Origin: Nakamurella alba
GTDB taxonomy: Bacteria > Actinomycetota > Actinomycetes > Mycobacteriales > Nakamurellaceae
NCBI RefSeq assembly: GCF_009707545.1
Contig: NZ_WLYK01000005.1
Span: 620,001-684,000, forward strand
DNA length: 64,000 nt
Reading direction: 5' to 3'
Both the position numbers and the translations under genes were made by a program. Positions 32,067 through 44,133 of the stretch are shown piece by piece. How positions within the stretch are numbered: position 1 is the first letter of the stretch; each line of letters opens with the position of its first letter. The notes below the pieces were generated by a model that worked only from the letters and a program-made list of their open reading frames with translations, made no database searches and had not been told where the DNA came from.

Positions 32067-33440
32067 TCACCCGACCCACCGTTGCACCAGCGAGATCACC
32101 CCGAAGATCAGCACCACGCCGGGCACCAGGGCCAGCACGGCGAGCAGTTCGACCCGGTCGAGCACCCGTGACGCCCGCGCGCCGGCGACGTCGGTCAGCC
32201 GGCCGAGACCGGCGGCGGCGACCACCACGCCGACCAGCACGAGACCGCCGAGCACCGCGACCCCGCCGCTCTCCGGCAGCCAGCCGGGCAGCGCGAGACA
32301 CGCGCCGACGGCCGCGGCCACCGGCACGGCGATCATCGGTGCCACGTGCGCGGCCCGGCTGAACATGCGGGACCGCAGGGCGAACACCAGGCCGCCGAGC
32401 GCGCCCAGGGCCGGCGAGAACCAGCCCGCCGCAGCGGTTCCGCCCATCAGCAGCAGGACGGAGAGGCCGCCGGTGACCGTCGCGCCGGCCACCGCGCCGG
32501 TGGCCAGCGAGGTCCCGCGGGCGACCGCCTCGGCGACCCGGGCGCGGGGCAACCTGACCCCTCGTTCGTCGGCGACTATCAGGTCGACCAGCCCGGCCCC
32601 ACCCAACGCCAGCTGGCCGGCGACGCCGCTGATCAGCACGGCCAGCACCAGACCGAGGGCGGCGGTGCGCTCGGCCGGCATGCCGAACCGCTCACAGAGC
32701 AGCGCCAGGGATCCGGCGACGACGATCACCGCACCGGCCACCATCGCCCCCAGCGACCGTCGGGCCACCGCGGCCAGCAGCCCGCCGACGGCCGCGGCCA
32801 GCAACGGGACCAGCGGAAACCCGTCCCAGTTCAGTGACGGGGTGATCAGTGAGGCCGGGACCGCGGTGCCCTCGCCGAACCCCGGCCGTCCGGCGGCGAT
32901 CCCGTAGACCACGCCGACGGCGGCGAGCGGGGAGATCAGCACCGCGGCCAGGCCACCGCTCCCCGGCAGCAGGGCGCCGGCCAGCAGCGCGGCGACCGCG
33001 CCGACCGCGGGCGCCAGCCAGCCGACGGTGCCGGTGGAGGCGGCGCCCAGCAGCACGGTGGCGAGCAGCACCGGGAGCAGCAGCCAGCCCACCGCGGTGC
33101 GGCGCGCGGTGCCGGACCAGGGCGGCGTCTGCTCGCCGACGATCTCGGCGACGGCGCGTTCGACGTCGTCGACGAACGGCGGTGGCGGCGCGGCGTCCGC
33201 TTCGGTGAGGTGCAGGACGGTGCCGTCGAGGACGCCGAGCTCGTCCAGCGAGCGCTCGGGGGACAGCGCCCCGATCGCCGGGGTGACCAGGCGCCAGCGG
33301 ACCGGGGTCGCGGCGGCGGGGACCGACAGCAGTCGCAGCACCGTGGGCATCTGACCGCCCAGCGGGGCGTCGGCCGGCAGCGACACATCGAGCTGGGCGT
33401 GCTCGCCGACCACGGTCACCCGGGTGAACCGTGTTCCCAC
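32067..33440 (-). CDS. eccD: Type VII secretion integral membrane protein EccD
   Basis: A 457-aa protein with an N-terminal ubiquitin-like domain (TRFTRVTVVGEHAQLDVSLP..., about residues 1-85, ending LDELGVLDGTVLHLTEA) and then about 11 membrane segments. This is the EccD/Snm4 layout, the channel-lining component of the ESX membrane complex. AGGAGG lies 7 nt before the GTG at 33440. It is divergent from eccC, with 161 bp between, so both may share a regulatory region. Confidence 0.88.
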   Translation of the reverse strand: MGTRFTRVTVVGEHAQLDVSLPADAPLGGQMPTVLRLLSVPAAATPVRWRLVTPAIGALSPERSLDELGVLDGTVLHLTEADAAPPPPFVDDVERAVAEIVGEQTPPWSGTARRTAVGWLLLPVLLATVLLGAASTGTVGWLAPAVGAVAALLAGALLPGSGGLAAVLISPLAAVGVVYGIAAGRPGFGEGTAVPASLITPSLNWDGFPLVPLLAAAVGGLLAAVARRSLGAMVAGAVIVVAGSLALLCERFGMPAERTAALGLVLAVLISGVAGQLALGGAGLVDLIVADERGVRLPRARVAEAVARGTSLATGAVAGATVTGGLSVLLLMGGTAAAGWFSPALGALGGLVFALRSRMFSRAAHVAPMIAVPVAAAVGACLALPGWLPESGGVAVLGGLVLVGVVVAAAGLGRLTDVAGARASRVLDRVELLAVLALVPGVVLIFGVISLVQRWVG

Positions 33441-33601
33441 CGGCCACCTCCTGGTCCCTGATCGGCCGATCCCGCCCCTCCCGGACAGGCCCGCCGTAGT
33501 GTAGGCGGGGCCTTTCGGGTGGTGCGGGGGATCGCCGGGAATCCCTGGTGAAGGCATCGGTGTCGGGGTGCCGTGGTACGCGTACAGGACGGAGGAGTGG
33601 G

Positions 33602-36600
33602 ATGTCGCAGCGGGTGATCCACCGGCCGGCGCGGACGCGGACCGAGCAGTACCGCCCCGCCCCGGTGCAGCTGATCCCGCCGCCGACCCCGCCGGAGACC
33701 GGCGGCAGCATCCAGGGCGCGATGCAGATCCTGATGCCGGTGATGGGCGGCGCCGGCTCGCTGATCATGATCGTGTCGAACAGGAACCCGGTGATGTTGA
33801 TCGCCGGCGGCATCATGCTCGGGGCCACCATCCTCGGCGCGCTGGCGATGTTCGTCGGCCAGCGCACCGGCGCCGCGCGCAAGGCGGCCGATCTGCGCCG
33901 GCGCTACCTCGACCACCTGGACCGGGTGCGTGGCGACCTGTCGGACTCGACGGCGCGGCAGCGGGATGCGGCGCTGCTGCACCACCCCGATCCGGACCTG
34001 CTGCCCGAGATCGCCAGGGATCCGGCCCGGATCTGGGAACGCCGCCCGGGTGACCCGGACTTCCTGGTGGTGCGGGTGGGCACCGGTCCGGCCCCGCTGT
34101 GGTCCCGTGTGGCCGCGACACCGGTGCGGGATCCGTTGGCGGAACCGGACATCGTCACCGCCGCCGCCGTGCACCGGATCGTGGAACGGGACCGGATGGT
34201 CGGCGGGATGCCGATCGGACTGCCGATCTCGGGCCGGGTCAGCGTGGTCGGGGCGCCGGCCGAGGTCCGCCGGGTGATGACCGCGGCCCTGGCCCAGCTG
34301 GTCACCCTGCACGGCCCGGAGGAGGTGCGGCTGCTGGCCTGCGTCCCGCGGTCGGGCAGCCGCTGGCTGGACCGGCTGAAATGGCTGCCGCACGCACTGT
34401 CCACCGAGGAGGTGGACGGGGTGGCCCCGGCGCGGCTGGCAGCCGCGCGGCCCGAGGAACTGATGGCGACGATCGGACCCGAGATCGCCCGCCGGGTCGG
34501 TGAAGCCACCCGGACGCTGCGGTCCCGGCAGGGTGATCCGTCCCGCTTCGGTCCGGCCCTGGTGCTGCTGGTCGACGGGCTGGCCGGTACCGCCGCCGAC
34601 CCGCTGTCCGGCATCCCCGCCGATCTCGACCCGGCCGGGATCGGCGTGCACGTGCTGACTCTCGTCCCGTCCCCGCACCTGGAACCGCGCCTGGTCGACG
34701 TCCGGCTGACCGTCGGCGACGGCGGGGTGCAGGTGCAGGACCTGCGCCCGCCGGACGACCACGACGACGTGCAGGCGGCGCGGGTGCGTGCGGTCGGCGC
34801 CGCCGCGGGGGTGCCCGACGAGATCGCCGACGGGGTGCTGGACGGGCTGGTCCGGGAGCTGACCGCGGTCCGGCTGGTGGAGGAGCGCGGGCCGGACGAG
34901 CCGCTCGCCGGCACCCTCTCGCTGGGCGATCTGGTGGGTGTGCAGGATCCCGGCGACTTCGACGTCGCGGCGACCTGGCGGCCCCGGTCGTTGCCCGACT
35001 TCCTTCGTGTGCCTTTTGGTCTCGGACCGTCGGGGGAGCGGGTGCACCTGGACATCAAGGAGCCGGCGCTCGGCGGGATGGGGCCGCACGGCCTGTGTGT
35101 CGGCGCCACCGGGTCGGGCAAGTCCGAGGTGCTGCGCACCGTGGTGCTGTCGCTGGCGATGAGTCACCCGCCGGAGCGGTTGGCGATGGTGCTCGTGGAC
35201 TACAAGGGCGGCGCCACCTTCGCCGGCCTGGAGGACCTGCCGCATTGCGCGGCGATGATCTCCAACCTGTCCGACGACACCGGGCTGGTCGACCGGCTGC
35301 ACGACGCGTTGTTCGGTGAGATGAAGCGCCGCCAGCAGGTGCTGGCCGCGGCCGGCAACCTGCCGAACGTCACCGAGTACAACCGGCGACGGGATGCGGG
35401 CGAGCCGATGGAGCCACTGCCGAACCTGTTCGTGGTGATCGACGAGTTCGGCGAGTTGCTCACCGCCAAACCGGATTTCATCGAACTGTTCCTGGCCATC
35501 GGCCGGATCGGCCGGTCGATCGGCGTGCACCTGCTCCTGGCCTCGCAGCGGCTGGAGGAGGGCCGGCTGCGCGGGCTAGAGTCGTTCCTGTCGTACCGAC
35601 TGGGCCTGCGCACCTTCAACGTCAACGAGTCCCGGTCGGTGCTCGGGGTGCCGGACGCCTACGAACTGCCGCCCATCCCGGGATCGGGCTACCTGAAGGT
35701 CGACACCACGGTGTTCCAGCGGTTCAAGGCCGCCTACGTCTCCGGGGTCTACACGCCGCCGGTGACCGGCGAGACCGAGATCGACATTGCGCCGGTGGCA
35801 GCACCTTTCCCGCTGTTCAACGACACGGCGGCGTACCTGGCGGCGGTCGGCGCCGAGCAGGAGGCCGCCCGGCCGGCGGCCCCGGTCGTCGCGGAGGACG
35901 TGCTGGCGCCGAGCGTGCTGGACGTCGCCGTCCGCCGGCTCGCGGAGGCCGGGAACCGGGTCGCGCAGATCTGGCTGCCGCCGCTGCCGTCCCGGCTGCC
36001 GTTGGACGAGGTGGCCGGCCCGGTGGTCCCGGATCCGGTGCTGGGCCTGCGGTTCGGCGCGTCGCTGCCGGGCGTCGGCCGGTTCGGCGGTCTGCGGATC
36101 CCGATCGGCCTGCTGGACCGGCCGGCGGACCAGCGGCAGGAGCCGTACGTGCTGGACCTCGGTGCCTCCGGTGGTCATCTGGCGATCCTCGGTGCGCCGC
36201 AGAGCGGCAAGTCGGTGCTGCTGCGGTCCATGGTCATCTCCGCGGCACTGACCCACCAACCCGGCGAGATCTCCTTCTACTGCGTCGATCTGGGTGGCGG
36301 TTCGTTGCGGGTGCTGGAGGGTCTGCCGCACGTCGCGGGGGTGGCGCCGCGGATGGACGCCGACAGGGTGCGCCGCACCATCGCCGAGGTCGCGACCGCG
36401 CTGGCCGAGCGCGAGCAGCTGTTCTCCCGCTGGGGGATCGACTCGGTGGAGGAGATGCGGGACCGGTTCCGGGCCGGGCGGCTGCACGAGCTCGACGTCG
36501 CCGACATCGTGCTGGTCGTGGACAACTACCCGGTGCTGCGCTCCGACTTCGAGGACCTCGCCGACCTGCTGCTCGACCTGGCCACCCGCGGGCCCGGGTA

Positions 36601-37753
36601 CGGCATCCACCTGGTGCTGACCTCCGGCCGCTGGGCGGACATCCGGATGCAGCTGCAGGCGGCACTGGGCAGCAAGGTCGAGCTGCGGGTCAACGATCCC
36701 GGCGACTCCACCGTCTCCCGCAAGGCCGCGGCCAACCTGCGCGCCGACACCCCCGGCCGCGCGCTGGTCGCCGACGCCCTGCAGGTGCAGGTGTGCCTGC
36801 CGGAGCTGGCGGGTGGTGTCGGAGCGGATCCCGGCGCCGTGTCGGATCTCTCGGCGACAGCGGAGGTCTCGCGGGCCGTGCCGGGCGGGGACGGATCGGG
36901 TGCTGCCGGCGCGGTCGGCGGTACCTCGGCATCGGCCACCGAGCAGCTTGTCGCGGACATCGCGGCGGCGTGGCCGGGCGCGCCGGTGCCGGCCATCCGG
37001 ATGCTGCCCACCCTGGTCGACCAGGCCGAGCTGCGGGTCCGGGCCGGTGAGCGGGCCGGCGTCGTCATCGGTGTCGACGAGACCGAGCTGAAACCGGTGG
37101 AGCTGGACACCGACGGCGCCGACCGGCACATCCTGTTGCTGGGCGATGCGGAGAGCGGCAAGACGTCGTTCCTGCGGCTGCTGGTCTCCGACCTGATCGC
37201 GCGCCGCACCGACGACGAGGTGGTGTTCGCGGTGTTCGACATCCGCCGCACCCTGCTGGACGTGGTGCCGGAGGACTACCTCGGCGCCTATGCCGGCACC
37301 GCTGCGGCGGCGGCGGGCATGGCGGGCGGTGTGGCCGGGGAACTGCGCAAGCGGCTGCCCCCGGACGACGTGACCGCGGCCCAGCTGCGATCCCGGTCGT
37401 GGTGGAAGGGTCCGGAGATCTACGTACTGGTGGACGACTACGACCTGCTGGCCTCCGGCGGACCGGGACCGCTGGCGCCGTTCCTCGAGTTCCTGCCGCA
37501 GGCGCGGGACATCGGCTTCCACATGGTGCTGTGCCGTCGGTCCGGTGGTGCCGGCCGGGCGCTGTACGAGCCGGTGCTGCAACGGCTGCGGGAGGTCGGC
37601 GCCACCGGCCTGCTGCTCTCCGGTGACCGACAGGAGGGCGCGATCTTCCCCGGCGTCCACCTCTCCGTGCAGCCCACCGGCCGCGGCACGCTGGTGCGCC
37701 GGGGCCGCAAGCCTCAGTTGCTCCAGCTCGGCTACCTCCCCGAACCCTCCTGA
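33602..37753 (+). CDS. eccC: Type VII secretion ATPase EccC (EccCa-EccCb fusion)
   Basis: A 1383-aa FtsK/SpoIIIE-type motor. Two membrane helices lie near residues 40-85, followed by three ATPase modules. Module 1 has Walker A GATGSGKS (residues 501-508) and Walker B with Asp-Glu near 614 (VVIDEF). Module 2 has GAPQSGKS (864-871) but a weak Walker B (VVDNYPVL). Module 3 has GDAESGKT (1181-1188) and VLVDDYDLL. The single-chain form with three modules is the standard in many non-mycobacterial actinobacteria. It recognises WXG100 substrates and drives export. GGAGGAG precedes the ATG at 33602. Confidence 0.93.
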   Translation: MSQRVIHRPARTRTEQYRPAPVQLIPPPTPPETGGSIQGAMQILMPVMGGAGSLIMIVSNRNPVMLIAGGIMLGATILGALAMFVGQRTGAARKAADLRRRYLDHLDRVRGDLSDSTARQRDAALLHHPDPDLLPEIARDPARIWERRPGDPDFLVVRVGTGPAPLWSRVAATPVRDPLAEPDIVTAAAVHRIVERDRMVGGMPIGLPISGRVSVVGAPAEVRRVMTAALAQLVTLHGPEEVRLLACVPRSGSRWLDRLKWLPHALSTEEVDGVAPARLAAARPEELMATIGPEIARRVGEATRTLRSRQGDPSRFGPALVLLVDGLAGTAADPLSGIPADLDPAGIGVHVLTLVPSPHLEPRLVDVRLTVGDGGVQVQDLRPPDDHDDVQAARVRAVGAAAGVPDEIADGVLDGLVRELTAVRLVEERGPDEPLAGTLSLGDLVGVQDPGDFDVAATWRPRSLPDFLRVPFGLGPSGERVHLDIKEPALGGMGPHGLCVGATGSGKSEVLRTVVLSLAMSHPPERLAMVLVDYKGGATFAGLEDLPHCAAMISNLSDDTGLVDRLHDALFGEMKRRQQVLAAAGNLPNVTEYNRRRDAGEPMEPLPNLFVVIDEFGELLTAKPDFIELFLAIGRIGRSIGVHLLLASQRLEEGRLRGLESFLSYRLGLRTFNVNESRSVLGVPDAYELPPIPGSGYLKVDTTVFQRFKAAYVSGVYTPPVTGETEIDIAPVAAPFPLFNDTAAYLAAVGAEQEAARPAAPVVAEDVLAPSVLDVAVRRLAEAGNRVAQIWLPPLPSRLPLDEVAGPVVPDPVLGLRFGASLPGVGRFGGLRIPIGLLDRPADQRQEPYVLDLGASGGHLAILGAPQSGKSVLLRSMVISAALTHQPGEISFYCVDLGGGSLRVLEGLPHVAGVAPRMDADRVRRTIAEVATALAEREQLFSRWGIDSVEEMRDRFRAGRLHELDVADIVLVVDNYPVLRSDFEDLADLLLDLATRGPGYGIHLVLTSGRWADIRMQLQAALGSKVELRVNDPGDSTVSRKAAANLRADTPGRALVADALQVQVCLPELAGGVGADPGAVSDLSATAEVSRAVPGGDGSGAAGAVGGTSASATEQLVADIAAAWPGAPVPAIRMLPTLVDQAELRVRAGERAGVVIGVDETELKPVELDTDGADRHILLLGDAESGKTSFLRLLVSDLIARRTDDEVVFAVFDIRRTLLDVVPEDYLGAYAGTAAAAAGMAGGVAGELRKRLPPDDVTAAQLRSRSWWKGPEIYVLVDDYDLLASGGPGPLAPFLEFLPQARDIGFHMVLCRRSGGAGRALYEPVLQRLREVGATGLLLSGDRQEGAIFPGVHLSVQPTGRGTLVRRGRKPQLLQLGYLPEPS

Positions 37754-37921
37754 GACACGCGTTGCGTCCGTGGAAGTGGCTGCAATAGCGACCAGATGCA
37801 CGGACGCACACAAGGTCTCGCGCGACAGCGTCCTGCATCCAGTGAGGTATAGCTCACCGGTTGCAGGACGCTACTGCCTGGCCGCTCGGCCCGTGCGCGC
37901 GCACCAGGGTGGTGCGGCGGG

Positions 37922-38515
37922 TCAGTTCCAGCCGCGGGCGGCGGCGTAGGCGGGGACCGCGGCGGTGAGGACGTCGCGGATGCGGGCGGCCTCGGCGGCG
38001 GCGCGCACCTGCGCGGGGTCGAACGGGTCGGCCGAGACGAGCGCATAGGCCTCGGCCTGCGCGGCGGCCTCGACCTCGGCCAGCGGCGGCGTGGAGGCGA
38101 GGGTGACGTCCAGGTCGGCCAACAGGTCCACCGCCTCGTCGGAGGCCCAGCCGGCGGCCTCGACCGCATCCTCGCCGTACTGTGCGGTCGCCGCGTAGGA
38201 GATCGCGCTGATCGCCCGCATCGCGTAGTAGGCCGGGCTGTTGCTGTCGTCGGCGTCCGCCTCGTCGGCCTCGTTCACCTCGGCGTCCACCTGCTCGGCC
38301 GCCGCCGCATCGACCGCACCGACGCCCGCACCGTCGCCGGCGCCCAGACCGGCCCAGAGCCGCTGCAGCCAGTCGTCGACCGCGGCGGCGGTGGCCGGCG
38401 AGGCCCAGCCACGGACCAGCGGCTGCAGGTGCGTCGCGCAGGCCAGGGCGTAGGCGGCCAGCCGCGGCCGGTCCAGCGCACTCAGATCGAGGTCGGGGGT
38501 GGGCGTCTCGGTCAT
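37922..38515 (-). CDS. Putative immunity protein for the RHS toxin
   Basis: A 197-aa, acidic, helix-rich, soluble protein (LAAYALACATHLQPLVRGW, YYAMRAISAISYAATAQYG, DEAVDLLADLDVTL, EAYALVSADPFDPAQVR). Its ATG overlaps the toxin stop by 4 bp (38512-38515), the usual arrangement of polymorphic toxin and immunity genes. It has weak resemblance in length and helix pattern to DUF416/YjaG proteins, which I cannot confirm. The low-complexity Ala/Asp/Glu stretch near residues 70-90 is odd. Neutralising the deaminase-like toxin domain is inferred from position. Confidence 0.7.
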   Translation of the reverse strand: MTETPTPDLDLSALDRPRLAAYALACATHLQPLVRGWASPATAAAVDDWLQRLWAGLGAGDGAGVGAVDAAAAEQVDAEVNEADEADADDSNSPAYYAMRAISAISYAATAQYGEDAVEAAGWASDEAVDLLADLDVTLASTPPLAEVEAAAQAEAYALVSADPFDPAQVRAAAEAARIRDVLTAAVPAYAAARGWN

Positions 38516-41500
38516 GAGGGCCACCAGAACATGCGGTGCGGTGTCTTCGCAAGCTCGCCGGTGGTGACGCCGGGGAACGTCGGACCGCCGGTCTGCCCGC
38601 CGCTGCCCGTGATCAGCGGCGCACAGGTCGACTCGCAGACGTTGCGGGAGGTGCCACCGGCGGTCGGTGACCACTCCGGTGATCCGTCGAGGTGCGACAG
38701 GATGGTCTGCTCGGCGTGCCCGACCCCGTCGACGTACTGCTCGCCGTCCCGCAGCTGACCCTCCCAGGTGCGCGGCATGGTCGGCGCCTCGGTGGCGATC
38801 AGCGTCCGCACCTCGCCGGTCTCGGTGTGCCGGACCTGGACGACCGCGGTAGTGCCGTTGCGGACCAGCCAGGGACGCTCCCGCTGCGACTGCAGGTCGG
38901 CCGCGCGGGTCTGCAGCCCGGCGGCCACGTCCTGACACTTGAGACCACTGGGATCGACCTCGCGGAGCGGGTTGTCGACGTAGCGGTGCGGATCCGGCGC
39001 GGGTTGCAGGCCCATCGGGTCGGGCGTGGTGAACCGCGCCGTCTCCGGGTCGTAGTAGCGGTACCGGTTGTAGTTCAGCCCCGACTCCGGATCGGCGTAC
39101 TGGCCGGCGAAACGGATCGGGCAGTTCGGCCGGTCCGGGTCGGTCGTGGGGTCCGGGACGAGCGGACTGCCCCACAGGGTGGCCTGCGGTGCCCGCCAGC
39201 GGATCGAGCGGCCGTCCTCGGCGACCAGTTCGGTGGGGGTCCCCACCGGATCGGTCACCACGGCGTCGAACTCGTCGGACCCGCCGCGGGCGATGTGCTG
39301 CGCGACCGGTACCAGGCCGTCGTCCGCGTAGTCCCACCCGGTGACTGTCACCGTGCCGTCGGCAGCTGTGCTGATCTGCTCGACCAGCGTCGGACCGTCC
39401 CAGACGAACTCGGTGCGGGCGCCGTCGGTGCCGTCGACCCCGCGCTGCTGCTTGGACAGCCGGCGGCCGAACATGTCGTAGGTGTAGGTCCAGGTGCTGC
39501 CGTCCGTGGGCCGCACCCCGACCAGCCGGTCCTCGGCGTCGTAGTCGAAGTGGGTGACGGCGGGCTTGGCGGACAGCCGGGTGGTGCTCCGGCTGACCAG
39601 CCGGCCGTCGGCGTCGTAGGCGTAGCGATGCCGCCCGGAGCGCACGACACGCGTGCCGTCGTACTCGCGGGTGCCGCCCGCGTCCATCAGTCCGTCCGGG
39701 ACGGGCATCGCTCCCGCGGACATCGAAAAGGCGAGATCGGTGATGTTGCCGGCACCGTCGTACCGGTAACCCTCGGTCCAGCCCGCGGCGTCCACCCGCT
39801 GCACCCGGCCGGCCGGGTCGAGCAGGTAGTCCCGGGCCACCCCGGTGATCCGGTCGTGGACACCGGTCGGCGTGCCGTCGGCGCGGTAGCGGAACTCCCG
39901 CGCGGTGAGCATCTCCGGGCCGCCGGAGGCATCGCCGTGCCGGCCGGCTGCCTGCGCGGTCCGCCGCCCGGCGATGTCGTAGCTGCTGTCGAGCACCGCG
40001 CCGGCGTCGAACTCCCGCCGGGTCTCACGTCCGGCATCGTCGATCCCGAATCGGATCTCGCGGCCGGCGGTGCCGAGGGCCACGGTGCGCCCGGTGGCGT
40101 CCCGCACCCGGGTGCTGGTGCGGCCGGAGGGCAGGGTGGTACCGGTGCGGCGACCCGCGGCGTCGAATGTCGAGGCGACCGTGCGGCCGTTCACCGTCTC
40201 CGCGATCACCCGGCCTGCCGGGTCCCGGGTCAGTGCGACGGTGACGGACCCGGAATCGGCCCCGATCAGGCTGCCCCGTCGGTCGTAGCGGTAGTGCACG
40301 GTGCCGGCGGAGGTGGAGCGGGAGACCAGGTCGCCGGCGAGATCGTAGGCGAAACCGGTGGTCTCGCCACGGGCGTCGGTGAGTGCCGTGGGCCGGCCGA
40401 CGGCGTCGTGGGTGTAGCCGACCGTGCGTCCGTCGAAGTCGGTCTCGGCCACCACCTGACCGGCGGCGTCGTAGACGTACCGCCAGCGCCGACCGGCCGG
40501 GTCGGTGACGGTGGTCAGTCGCAACTCGGTGTCGTAGGCGAACAGGTACCGGGCACCGGACGGATCGGTCCGGCTGACCGGCAGGTCGAAGATCCCGTTC
40601 TCGTACTCGGTCCGGCCCTGCGCCGGGTCGGTCCGGGACAGCAGGTTGCCCTCCGGATCCCATGCCCAGACCCATTGCGCGCCATCGGGTCCGGTCCGGC
40701 GTAGCGGCCGACCTTCCACAGACCACTCGGTGACGGTGCGGGCGCCGGCCGGGTCGACCAGCAGCACCTGCCGGCCGAAGGCGTCGTAGGCGTAGCTGCT
40801 GGTGCGGCCGAGGGCATCGGTGACCGCCACGATGCGCCCTGCCGCGTCGGTGTCGATCTCCACCCGGTCGCCGAGCGCGTTGATCGCCGCGGACACCGCG
40901 CCGGTGGGCGCGTACTCGGAGATCGACGTCGCCCCGGCCGGTGTGGTCTCGCTGATCAGCGAGCCGTTCTTGTCGAAAGCGCTGAGGTGGTGCTGACCCT
41001 CGGCATCGGTGGTCCGGACCGGACGGCCGTGTGCGTCACGTTCGATCCGCACCGTCGACCCGTCCGGGTGCACCACCTCGAGCATGCGGCCGAGGTCGTC
41101 GAGCACGAACTGGGTGGTGCGGCCCTCGGCGTCGGTCCGCATCAGCAGTCGGTCGAAGCTGTCCCGCAGGTAGGAGGTGATGCGGTGCAGCGGGTCGACG
41201 ACACGGGTGATCTGCCCGTCCTCGTTGAACTCGTAGACGCTGACCGCGCCGGTGGAATCGGTGACGGTGGTGCGGCCGAGCCCGTACGAGAACGCGTACG
41301 ACAGCACCCGGCCGCGGCCCGCGGTGCGGATGCAGCGGGACTGCTCGTCGTAGAGGTACTCGTACCAGATGCCGTTGCGGTCGTCCCAGCGGACGATGCG
41401 GGCCTGGTCGTCGTAGTGCAGCCGGAGCGGCAGGCCGGAGGAGTTGACGATCGAGGCGAGCCCGCGCAGGCCGTGGCCGTAGCTCAGCACCCGGGTCATG

Positions 41501-43128
41501 CCGTCCGGTGCGGCCGGATCGGCGAGCGACAGCCCGGTGAACCGGCCCCGGTCCGATTCGATCAGCAGCTGGTACCCACCGGTGTGCGAGATCCGCTGCA
41601 GCACACCGGTGTCGCCGTAGCCGAAGACGATGCGGTTGTCGTGGGCATCCCTGATGTGCTCGATCCGGCCGTCGCCCGCGTCGTCGAGGTCGGCCAGCCG
41701 GCGGGTGACCAGCTCGATCGGGTCGGTGAGGTCCCAGCCGTCACGTAGCCGGGTCAGCGCCCAGCGCCGGATCCCCCAGCGCGCGATCCGGCTCTCACCC
41801 TCGGTCAGCGTGAGCGCGTCCTCGAAGAGCAGCGCACCGCCGTCCTCGGTGAGGAAGAGCAGATCGTCGCCGGCGCCGCGGACCAGGCGCTGGTCCAGCG
41901 TGGACGCCCAGGAGGGGCCGAAACCGCCGCCCCAGCGGTACGAACTGAGGTGGGTGCGGCGCAGGACCAGCGGCAGTACCCCGGGGAGGGTGAGATCGGT
42001 GTGCGACAGTAGCATGTCGCCGGACACGACATCGATCGGATCGCCGCAGGCGGTGCGGTCGCCCAGCGGGGTCCGCGTCGTGGGGGATCCGGCACCGGTG
42101 TCGCCGGCCCGCCCGCCGCGACCGCCGCGACCGCCGCGGGCACCCAACGCGCCGAGTCCGACCACCATGGCCAGGTCCGCGGGTGAGGCCTCGCCGGTGG
42201 CGACCTGGTAGGAGGTGACGGCGATGTCGGCGCCCATGGCGATCTTCGCGGCACGCACCCCGGGTATCAGTCCCAGTGCGTCCAGCCCGATCTGGGTCCA
42301 GGAGCCCTCACCGGTGGCCAGTTTGACGGCCACGTCGATACCGATGGCCGCGGCGCCGGTGACCAGGGCGATGGGTCCCATGATCGGCGCGAGCCCGGGG
42401 ATCAGGGCCAGCACGCCGGCGATGCCGGAGATGGTCTTGAGGACGGAGGAGATGGCGGTGAGCACGTCGGCGTGCTCGGCGATCCAGTCGCCGACGTTCG
42501 AGCACAGCGAGTCGAACCAACCCGGCGGATCCTCGAAACGCATCCCCTTCGCCTCGTTGATCTTCGAGACGCAGGTGTCCACCGCGCTGCGGTGCTTGCT
42601 CTGGATGCCGTTGGCGGCGTCGATGGTGCCTTGCAGTGCCGCCTGCTTCGCGCTGAGATCCGCGGTGGCACCGGAGGTCTGCGGTTGGTAGGTGTCCGTC
42701 GGCATGGTCTCGCCGGGCTTGAGCAGCTTCTCCGCCTCGGCCTGCGCGGTGGCGTGCTGGGAATCCGCGGTCTGCGCGTGCGAGACGGCGGTCTGTGCGC
42801 CGGAGACCGCATCGCTCTGCTCGTCCCGGTCCGCCGCCAGGCTCGACAGCTGCGACTGCAGGGACTCCAGCGTGTCGGCGTAGGTGGTGAGTGCGGAGGC
42901 GACCATCGACCACGCCTCGCTGGTGGTCTCCAGGTTCGGCGGGAGGTCGTCGGACATCTGCGAGCGGTAGGTGTCGGCCTCGTCGCCGACGAACTCGCTG
43001 GAGTCCAGGCCGCGGATGTCCGAGGCCGCGGTCGACGTGTCGGTGGAGAACCCGCTCCACTTCGTTGCCGAGGAACGGATTTCACCCGGCGAACCACCGA
43101 GGACGAACGGATCTCCCAACCTGCTCAC
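38512..43128 (-). CDS. T7SS-linked RHS-repeat polymorphic toxin with deaminase-like C-terminus
   Basis: About 1538 aa. The N-terminus (about residues 1-240) is a helical WXG/T7SS-substrate-like region (RLGDPFVLGGSPGEIRSSA..., coiled-coil helices). A hydrophobic glycine-rich stretch follows (about 245-300). The RHS shell then runs with many YD/RHS repeats to RYYDPETARFTTPDPMGL and DPSGLKC. The last about 145 residues form the toxin: VGHAEQTILSHL (H-A-E) and SRNVCESTCAPLI (C-x3-C) match the zinc site of the cytidine-deaminase superfamily. RHS proteins encapsulate such toxins. The GTG at 43128 is chosen to begin at the conserved RLGDPF; an ATG at 43191 is possible. It sits in the type VII locus with a cognate immunity gene. 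Confidence 0.85.
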   Translation of the reverse strand: MSRLGDPFVLGGSPGEIRSSATKWSGFSTDTSTAASDIRGLDSSEFVGDEADTYRSQMSDDLPPNLETTSEAWSMVASALTTYADTLESLQSQLSSLAADRDEQSDAVSGAQTAVSHAQTADSQHATAQAEAEKLLKPGETMPTDTYQPQTSGATADLSAKQAALQGTIDAANGIQSKHRSAVDTCVSKINEAKGMRFEDPPGWFDSLCSNVGDWIAEHADVLTAISSVLKTISGIAGVLALIPGLAPIMGPIALVTGAAAIGIDVAVKLATGEGSWTQIGLDALGLIPGVRAAKIAMGADIAVTSYQVATGEASPADLAMVVGLGALGARGGRGGRGGRAGDTGAGSPTTRTPLGDRTACGDPIDVVSGDMLLSHTDLTLPGVLPLVLRRTHLSSYRWGGGFGPSWASTLDQRLVRGAGDDLLFLTEDGGALLFEDALTLTEGESRIARWGIRRWALTRLRDGWDLTDPIELVTRRLADLDDAGDGRIEHIRDAHDNRIVFGYGDTGVLQRISHTGGYQLLIESDRGRFTGLSLADPAAPDGMTRVLSYGHGLRGLASIVNSSGLPLRLHYDDQARIVRWDDRNGIWYEYLYDEQSRCIRTAGRGRVLSYAFSYGLGRTTVTDSTGAVSVYEFNEDGQITRVVDPLHRITSYLRDSFDRLLMRTDAEGRTTQFVLDDLGRMLEVVHPDGSTVRIERDAHGRPVRTTDAEGQHHLSAFDKNGSLISETTPAGATSISEYAPTGAVSAAINALGDRVEIDTDAAGRIVAVTDALGRTSSYAYDAFGRQVLLVDPAGARTVTEWSVEGRPLRRTGPDGAQWVWAWDPEGNLLSRTDPAQGRTEYENGIFDLPVSRTDPSGARYLFAYDTELRLTTVTDPAGRRWRYVYDAAGQVVAETDFDGRTVGYTHDAVGRPTALTDARGETTGFAYDLAGDLVSRSTSAGTVHYRYDRRGSLIGADSGSVTVALTRDPAGRVIAETVNGRTVASTFDAAGRRTGTTLPSGRTSTRVRDATGRTVALGTAGREIRFGIDDAGRETRREFDAGAVLDSSYDIAGRRTAQAAGRHGDASGGPEMLTAREFRYRADGTPTGVHDRITGVARDYLLDPAGRVQRVDAAGWTEGYRYDGAGNITDLAFSMSAGAMPVPDGLMDAGGTREYDGTRVVRSGRHRYAYDADGRLVSRSTTRLSAKPAVTHFDYDAEDRLVGVRPTDGSTWTYTYDMFGRRLSKQQRGVDGTDGARTEFVWDGPTLVEQISTAADGTVTVTGWDYADDGLVPVAQHIARGGSDEFDAVVTDPVGTPTELVAEDGRSIRWRAPQATLWGSPLVPDPTTDPDRPNCPIRFAGQYADPESGLNYNRYRYYDPETARFTTPDPMGLQPAPDPHRYVDNPLREVDPSGLKCQDVAAGLQTRAADLQSQRERPWLVRNGTTAVVQVRHTETGEVRTLIATEAPTMPRTWEGQLRDGEQYVDGVGHAEQTILSHLDGSPEWSPTAGGTSRNVCESTCAPLITGSGGQTGGPTFPGVTTGELAKTPHRMFWWPS

Positions 43129-43353
43129 CGCTTTCGCACCGGGCACCGGTGAAGGTGCCACCCCGACCGTGCGCTCGTCGGCGCACGACATGCTCGGGGG
43201 CGGACCGGTGCACGCACCGACCCGCCCCCTGGTACCGCTGTCCTGCCGACGTCGGTCCCACCCCTGGAACCCTGATGACGTCGGAGGTCTCGTCGGCCGT
43301 CCGCGACGGCCGTGTGCCGCACCCGCGCTCTCGCGACCGGGGCGGCGGCCCGA

Positions 43354-43653
43354 TCAGTGCGCGGACAGCGCGCCGCGCACCTGACCGCGCATGTCCTTGA
43401 CGGACGAGGTGTTCTTGCCCAGCGCCGAGTTCACGGCGGTGAGGATCTCCTGGACGGTGGTGGCGGCGGAGTCCCACTTGGACTGGATCCCCGCGTACAC
43501 CTCCATCTCGTCGCCGTCCCACGACGACTTCACGCTGGTCACGAAGCCGCCGAGGTCGCTCAGCGACGACTCGAGGCCCGAGATGACCGACGCCAGGTCG
43601 CCGGCGGCGGCCTCCGCGGTCGCCTCGTTGTACGAGAACACTCCTGCACCCAT
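43354..43653 (-). CDS. WXG100-family protein (first of a pair)
   Basis: A 99-aa helical-hairpin protein. Helix 1 is NEATAEAAAGDLASVISGLESSL, the turn SSWDGDEME sits where WXG occurs (W-D-G), and helix 2 runs VYAGIQSKWDSAATTVQEIL. The size and W-x-G motif define ESAT-6-like proteins, the dimeric substrates or chaperones of ESX secretion. It lies between the RHS toxin and a second WXG100 gene on the same strand, so it may help export the toxin. Confidence 0.85.
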   Translation of the reverse strand: MGAGVFSYNEATAEAAAGDLASVISGLESSLSDLGGFVTSVKSSWDGDEMEVYAGIQSKWDSAATTVQEILTAVNSALGKNTSSVKDMRGQVRGALSAH

Positions 43654-43797: not shown

Positions 43798-44133
43798 TCA
43801 CCAGTTGAACTTGGCCGACTCCCACGAGGCGCCGCTCATGGTGGCGTTCATCTCGTCGGTCTGCTGCTGCTCGTACTGGTCGTACAGGCCGCCGGCGTTC
43901 TTGACGTTGCCCTTGATGGACGCCAGTGCGGAGTTCAGGTCCTTCATCGCCGCGTTCCAGGCGGCGGTCAGCGCCTCCCAGGACGTGTACGAGGTGCCCT
44001 GCCACTCCGAGGGCAGGTCCTCGATGGCCGAGATGAACGCCTGTGCCTGCGCATTCATCGACGACTCGGCCGTCTCCAGGTTCGATGCGTGCTTGTTGAC
44101 CGAATCCTCGCGTACCGCGAACTTCGGACCCAT
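43798..44133 (-). CDS. WXG100-family protein (second of a pair)
   Basis: A 111-aa ESAT-6-like protein: helix 1 NKHASNLETAESSMNAQAQAF, the turn SEWQGTSYTSW (W-Q-G), helix 2 EALTAAWNAAMKDLNSAL, and a C-terminal tail ending SWESAKFNW. GTGAGGGA precedes the ATG at 44133; the frame extending to 44313 has no similarity. It is probably the heterodimer partner of the protein at 43354-43653 and the first gene of the WXG-WXG-RHS-immunity set. Confidence 0.85.
   Translation of the reverse strand: MGPKFAVREDSVNKHASNLETAESSMNAQAQAFISAIEDLPSEWQGTSYTSWEALTAAWNAAMKDLNSALASIKGNVKNAGGLYDQYEQQQTDEMNATMSGASWESAKFNW

Follow-up and report, generated by a model that had tools for sequence, protein, structure and literature searches.

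Base editors have come from deaminase toxin tips. Among the described toxins, SsdA (BaDTF2) of Pseudomonas syringae is a single-stranded DNA cytosine deaminase with an all-helical immunity protein and an SGW motif shared by BaDTF2, and both SsdA and DddA act on DNA, according to the available parts of the respective reports (PMC7901873; PMC9990079). The accessible portion of Zhang et al. 2012 pairs SCP1.201 deaminases with Imm1 and Imm4, describes sce3516-like toxin deaminases with CxxC and SUKH immunity, and assigns no toxin to Imm19 (PMC3482391). Here we analyzed a stretch of 64,000 nucleotides from Nakamurella alba (contig NZ_WLYK01000005.1, positions 620,001 to 684,000; hereafter the window), in which an RHS toxin gene ends in a deaminase-like tip and overlaps the following gene. 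In our reading, the tip would be an exported zinc-dependent base deaminase which a partner of DUF416 fold keeps inactive in the producer, and we assign this whole reading a probability of about 0.68; the toxin is real, and the two genes probably form an immunity pair.

The RHS shell ends at the motif DPSGLKC, with Rhs_assc_core stopping at residue 1417, and is followed by a tip of 143 amino acids (aa) which contains both the H-A-E and the C-x3-C motif that an earlier interpretation from the letters alone (the sequence-only reading) had placed in about 145 terminal residues. In the structure model of the tip, the [HCD]xE motif and the two zinc-site cysteines stand at two helix starts, the arrangement of the cytidine-deaminase-like superfamily, all four catalytic positions are retained, and the overall fold resembles that of solved deaminases. 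Modeling of the tip recovered a deaminase fold, and superfamily membership is supported by the conserved motifs and the predicted fold alike. SsdA gave the lowest root-mean-square deviation (rmsd) among the deaminase rows of the fold comparison (2.8 Å over 95 aa, model 1-143). One chain of the EspB-EspK complex of ESX-1 (PDB 8ako_B) also ranked with the top fold matches, so that a type VII secretion system (T7SS) chaperone and the deaminase-like tip may share a fold. The same fold and zinc site could serve to deaminate a small molecule, such as a free nucleotide or nucleoside, killing by draining or poisoning a pool, and among the solved structures listed by the fold comparison such enzymes are in the majority, so that the ranking is perhaps biased; however, the low rmsd to SsdA and the DNA targets of the known deaminase toxins cited above make a small-molecule substrate unlikely.

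Searched alone, the tip had no significant match in Pfam, NCBIfam or the PDB sequences, and among 17 genomes of its own genus the sole credible match was the tip itself. Relatives were found in wider searches: three further matches among 397 genomes of the order (E values from 2e-18 to 2e-12), plasmid records of Streptomyces goshikiensis, Embleya and Treponema and, in searches with alignments of these, six additional genomes among 394 of the class, 19 tip loci in a contig search (30 stretches fitted the pattern), and 32 out of 249 genomes in the family to which genome G736 belongs. This family is probably Streptomycetaceae, because the tips of loci L056 and L057 are identical to those of the named loci L021 and L023. 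The sample used below comprises 50 tips, i.e., the window and 49 out of 60 loci (L006-L010, L014-L038, L054-L083), leaving out six duplicates (L018, L037, L054, L056, L062, L072), L055, L069 (frame), L082 (partial) and two degraded tips, L068 without the stretch holding the first Cys and L076 out of frame past it; L011 is the plasmid copy of L027. The first motif has its His in 48 tips (HAE 45, HAD 1, HTE 1, HSE 1), the others having Gly (L022) or Asp (L083), while the first Cys and the one after it are spaced as C-x3-C in 37, as C-x2-C in seven and more widely in six; for L007 and L008 the motif (GHAE) was assigned by eye, and both carry an additional Cys. With this conservation the motifs go beyond chance, and the C-x3-C spacing, which the sequence-only reading set apart from the common C-x2-C, is indeed present but normal for this tip family, grading into the classical C-x2-C of some relatives. 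L022, L083 and L068 are possibly inactive tips. The HAE and Cys motifs extend to Clostridia (L024, L025) and, as a remnant, Treponema (L027). Inspection by eye placed RHS or Hint sequence upstream of the tip in most loci with upstream read, and short frames only in L014, L025, L027 and L038. An unusual carrier is found in L007 (193-1905) and its near copy L008, where the tip belongs to a protein that lacks an RHS shell and whose start, judged by eye, resembles a lipobox, without a Pfam match for the L007 protein, and an immunity gene of the window kind (type I, see below) follows with a 4-base overlap.

The gene next to the window toxin overlaps its stop by 4 bp, as previously noted, ATGA being common to both. 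In the fold comparison its product has the DUF416 fold (2q9r and 3f7c are DUF416 structures), and the DUF416 model PF04222 showed no match on it and matched one out of ten members of immunity set A9, at E 0.0036 in a scan showing no cut-off. Compared with the proteins following other tips, it scored 10-13 standard deviations above shuffles for L007, L008, L015 and L026, 3-5 for L014, L009, L029, L036, L034 and L016, 1.4 for L037, and at shuffle level for L019, L010, L006, L020, L024 and L027. A profile made without the window protein recovered it at E 7e-9, above 4,008 decoys, and by profile a type I, DUF416-type protein stands directly after 26 of the 50 tips, eleven being model rows, L017 being equal to a twelfth row (L037), and 14 others, with L019 weak (E 2.5e-4). 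A second kind follows six tips, a count that is not independent (five model rows plus L057, scoring exactly as L023), and a third, Imm19, follows three (L024, L025, L027), likewise all model rows, and Pfam scans of L024 (E 9e-13) and L027 (E 7e-9) placed both above the cut-off. The remaining 15 tips, grouped by shuffle scores, comprise five with a kind of ~340 aa, three with another (L010, L080, and L081 joined to L080 by eye), two with yet another (L070, L077) and five unplaced; when twelve such proteins were scored with the type I profile, that of L019 alone exceeded the decoys. One tip clade (L063, L071, L073, L074, L079) carries a common protein of about 334-355 aa in place of the DUF416-type gene, with no Pfam match in the three of the five that were scanned. 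In a quick tree of 48 tips (L025 and L027 being too short) the immunity kinds cluster, with 10 changes compared to a shuffled mean of 18.9, and since type I occurs in both halves of the tree, immunity swaps are likely; the tree leaves 22 of its 45 inner branches open.

Alternatively, the downstream gene might encode an unrelated DUF416-type cellular protein, as the solved DUF416 proteins carry titles of 'unknown function' and, of 20 places matched by the immunity profile in the 249 genomes, six lie directly after a tip and 14 do not. Nevertheless, toxinless immunity genes are common in polyimmunity loci as far as the accessible text describes them (PMC3482391), and considering the 4-bp overlap in the window and in L007 as well as the type I gene behind 26 tips, we regard this as very unlikely; the pairing of tips with one immunity family instead supports the likely cognate immunity gene of the sequence-only reading, which would protect the producer. 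Among the 14 places, L089, L091, L092, L093 and L094 have a tipless DUF416-type gene downstream of a common open reading frame (ORF) of about 233-236 aa, and L092 has a second profile match (L103) near the opposite end of its contig. A decayed or repurposed deaminase fold that merely binds or serves as a structural tip would agree with the relatives lacking the His or the first Cys stretch, yet is hardly credible given the complete catalytic positions in the window, the His kept almost throughout the sample and the retained candidate immunity genes.

The toxin carries, from its N-terminus, T7SS_signal, DUF6531, 16 RHS-repeat stretches, Rhs_assc_core and the tip (Table 1), and its description as a polymorphic RHS toxin is supported. 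The position 43128, previously taken as the limit of the gene, is an in-frame GTG, whereas the chosen ATG lies further upstream. The G+C content of the tip (72.0%), the putative immunity gene (76.6%) and the window (71.7%) gives no sign of a recent import. The type VII secretion locus proposed earlier is borne out by EccD, an ATPase of EccC size, two WXG100 genes and PF21725 on the toxin, which thus combines the signal domain with ESX neighbors as a T7SS effector does; EccB was not found in a search whose control was also silent. Signal domain and gene neighborhood suggest that the toxin may be exported by this ESX system. Where the immunity and EccC genes converge, a second inverted repeat (37763-37808) accompanies the one listed, and both are possibly transcription terminators.

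Table 1 Features of the toxin locus (window coordinates; motif residues in tip numbering).
Feature	Position	Strand	Remarks
EccD with YukD domain	32067..33557	-	496 aa
EccC-like FtsK/SpoIIIE ATPase	33548..37753	+	1401 aa; PF01580 E 2.7e-80, 3 stretches
Inverted repeat, terminator-like	37827..37872	.	arms of 23 nt with 87% complementarity; lies where immunity and EccC genes converge
Putative immunity gene	37922..38515	-	197 aa, all-helical, DUF416 fold
ATGA overlap, toxin stop / immunity start	38512..38515	-	4 bp
RHS toxin ORF	38512..43191	-	1559 aa, ATG start; in-frame GTG at 43128 as alternative start
Deaminase-fold toxin tip	38515..38943	-	143 aa, residues 1417-1559
C103-x3-C107	38623..38637	-	predicted zinc ligands; C107 begins model helix 107-113
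H76-A77-E78	38710..38718	-	predicted zinc ligand (H76) and proton shuttle (E78); spans the start of model helix 77-86
Rhs_assc_core (RHS-repeat-associated core), shell end	38941..39129	-	residues 1355-1417; TIGR03696 73.6 bits
DUF6531, start of RHS shell	41824..42045	-	residues 383-456
T7SS_signal PF21725	42652..43098	-	residues 32-180; 40.6 bits vs cut-off 27
WXG100 protein	43354..43653	-	99 aa
Second WXG100 protein	about 43798..44133	-	start codon by eye; ORF extends to 44313

Architecture, homologous family, conserved ligands, predicted fold and the pairing with one immunity family are computed features, next to which we infer delivery, catalysis, substrate and protection as follows. The T7SS domain at the N-terminus, together with the WXG100 partners, would bring the RHS protein out via the ESX system, and the shell would free the tip inside a competitor. 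There, zinc held by H76, C103 and C107 and protons moved by E78 would allow an amino group to be taken off a base, with mutation or lethal damage as the result. Given the precedents SsdA and DddA, this base is most likely cytosine within a nucleic acid. In the producer, the DUF416-fold protein from the overlapping gene would cap the active site. A bolder combination, namely an unmodeled deaminase clade with a flexible spacing of 2-9 residues to the second zinc Cys, a substrate or base preference new to toxins (e.g., adenine, RNA or an unusual cytosine context) and protection by the DUF416 fold and at least five unrelated immunity kinds, appears doubtful as a whole.

Profile scans with overlapping sets of tip rows (Pfam 11, 24 and 10 rows; NCBIfam 11 and 10 rows) revealed no named family above cut-off, with best E values of 0.01 (Pfam) and 0.054 (NCBIfam) in the alignment scans, which show no cut-offs. 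The weak matches were often deaminase models (XOO_2897, MsddA-like at 0.045, Deam_C, dCMP_cyt_deam_1, OTT_1508), and some non-deaminase models, e.g., Dak1 (0.01), were similarly strong. XOO_2897-deam (PF14440) did not match the window, reached its best value, and the best of any named deaminase model, on the relative L078 (E 8.2e-4, 19.9 bits, gathering score 27), and obtained a probability of 1.3% in a profile-profile comparison involving eight PF14440 rows of >80% identity. DYW_deaminase (PF14432, BaDTF2) and the DddA-like SCP1.201 (PF14428) were both unlisted at E up to 1 in the tip scans. The BaDTF2 SGW motif, located after strand 2 and ahead of the helix that follows it, reads RTW in the window, and a link of the tip family to BaDTF2 is suggestive only. 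The tip thus represents a deaminase family for which the libraries searched hold no Pfam or NCBIfam model, and neither the profile search recommended by the sequence-only reading nor the other scans altered its statement that the tip cannot be placed in a named family.

The tip/immunity pair adds a compact (~140 aa), widespread tip family missed by the profile libraries used, a possible source of base-editing enzymes. Furthermore, the DUF416 fold gains a testable role in immunity, the orphan immunity family Imm19 gains a candidate toxin in the tips of L024, L025 and L027, and one toxin tip appears to be paired with several unrelated protectors.

Compared with known systems, the window immunity protein has the fold of the DUF416 proteins (PF04222; 2q9r, 3f7c) but not their profile match, and the accessible literature and databases searched contained no immunity role for DUF416. 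From DddA/SCP1.201 (BaDTF1) the pair differs by the missing PF14428 match and by a DUF416-type partner instead of Imm1 or Imm4. XOO_2897-like deaminases provide the best weak hit among the named models, yet in the G736 family PF14440 turns up in 119 out of 121 genomes (loci L039-L053 among them), compared to 32 of 249 for the tip family, and there resembles a housekeeping gene more than a polymorphic toxin tip. SsdA shares the deaminase fold, a similar size, an all-helical immunity protein and, in four out of 50 tips, an S-G-W before the HAE helix near the position of the BaDTF2 motif; in contrast, the window tip has P-R-T-W at that site, C-x3-C, no PF14432 match and a T7SS rather than a type VI secretion system context, and its partner is DUF416-fold, with SsdAI absent from the fold matches, which excludes nothing. 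Finally, the sce3516-like toxin deaminases, set beside the tip by description and not by sequence, differ in CxxC and SUKH from C-x3-C and the DUF416-fold partner, but share the HAE motif, the C-terminal hairpin division, occurrence in actinobacterial RHS/T7SS toxins and the HINT association in the available part of their description, and could be the same clade as the tip family.
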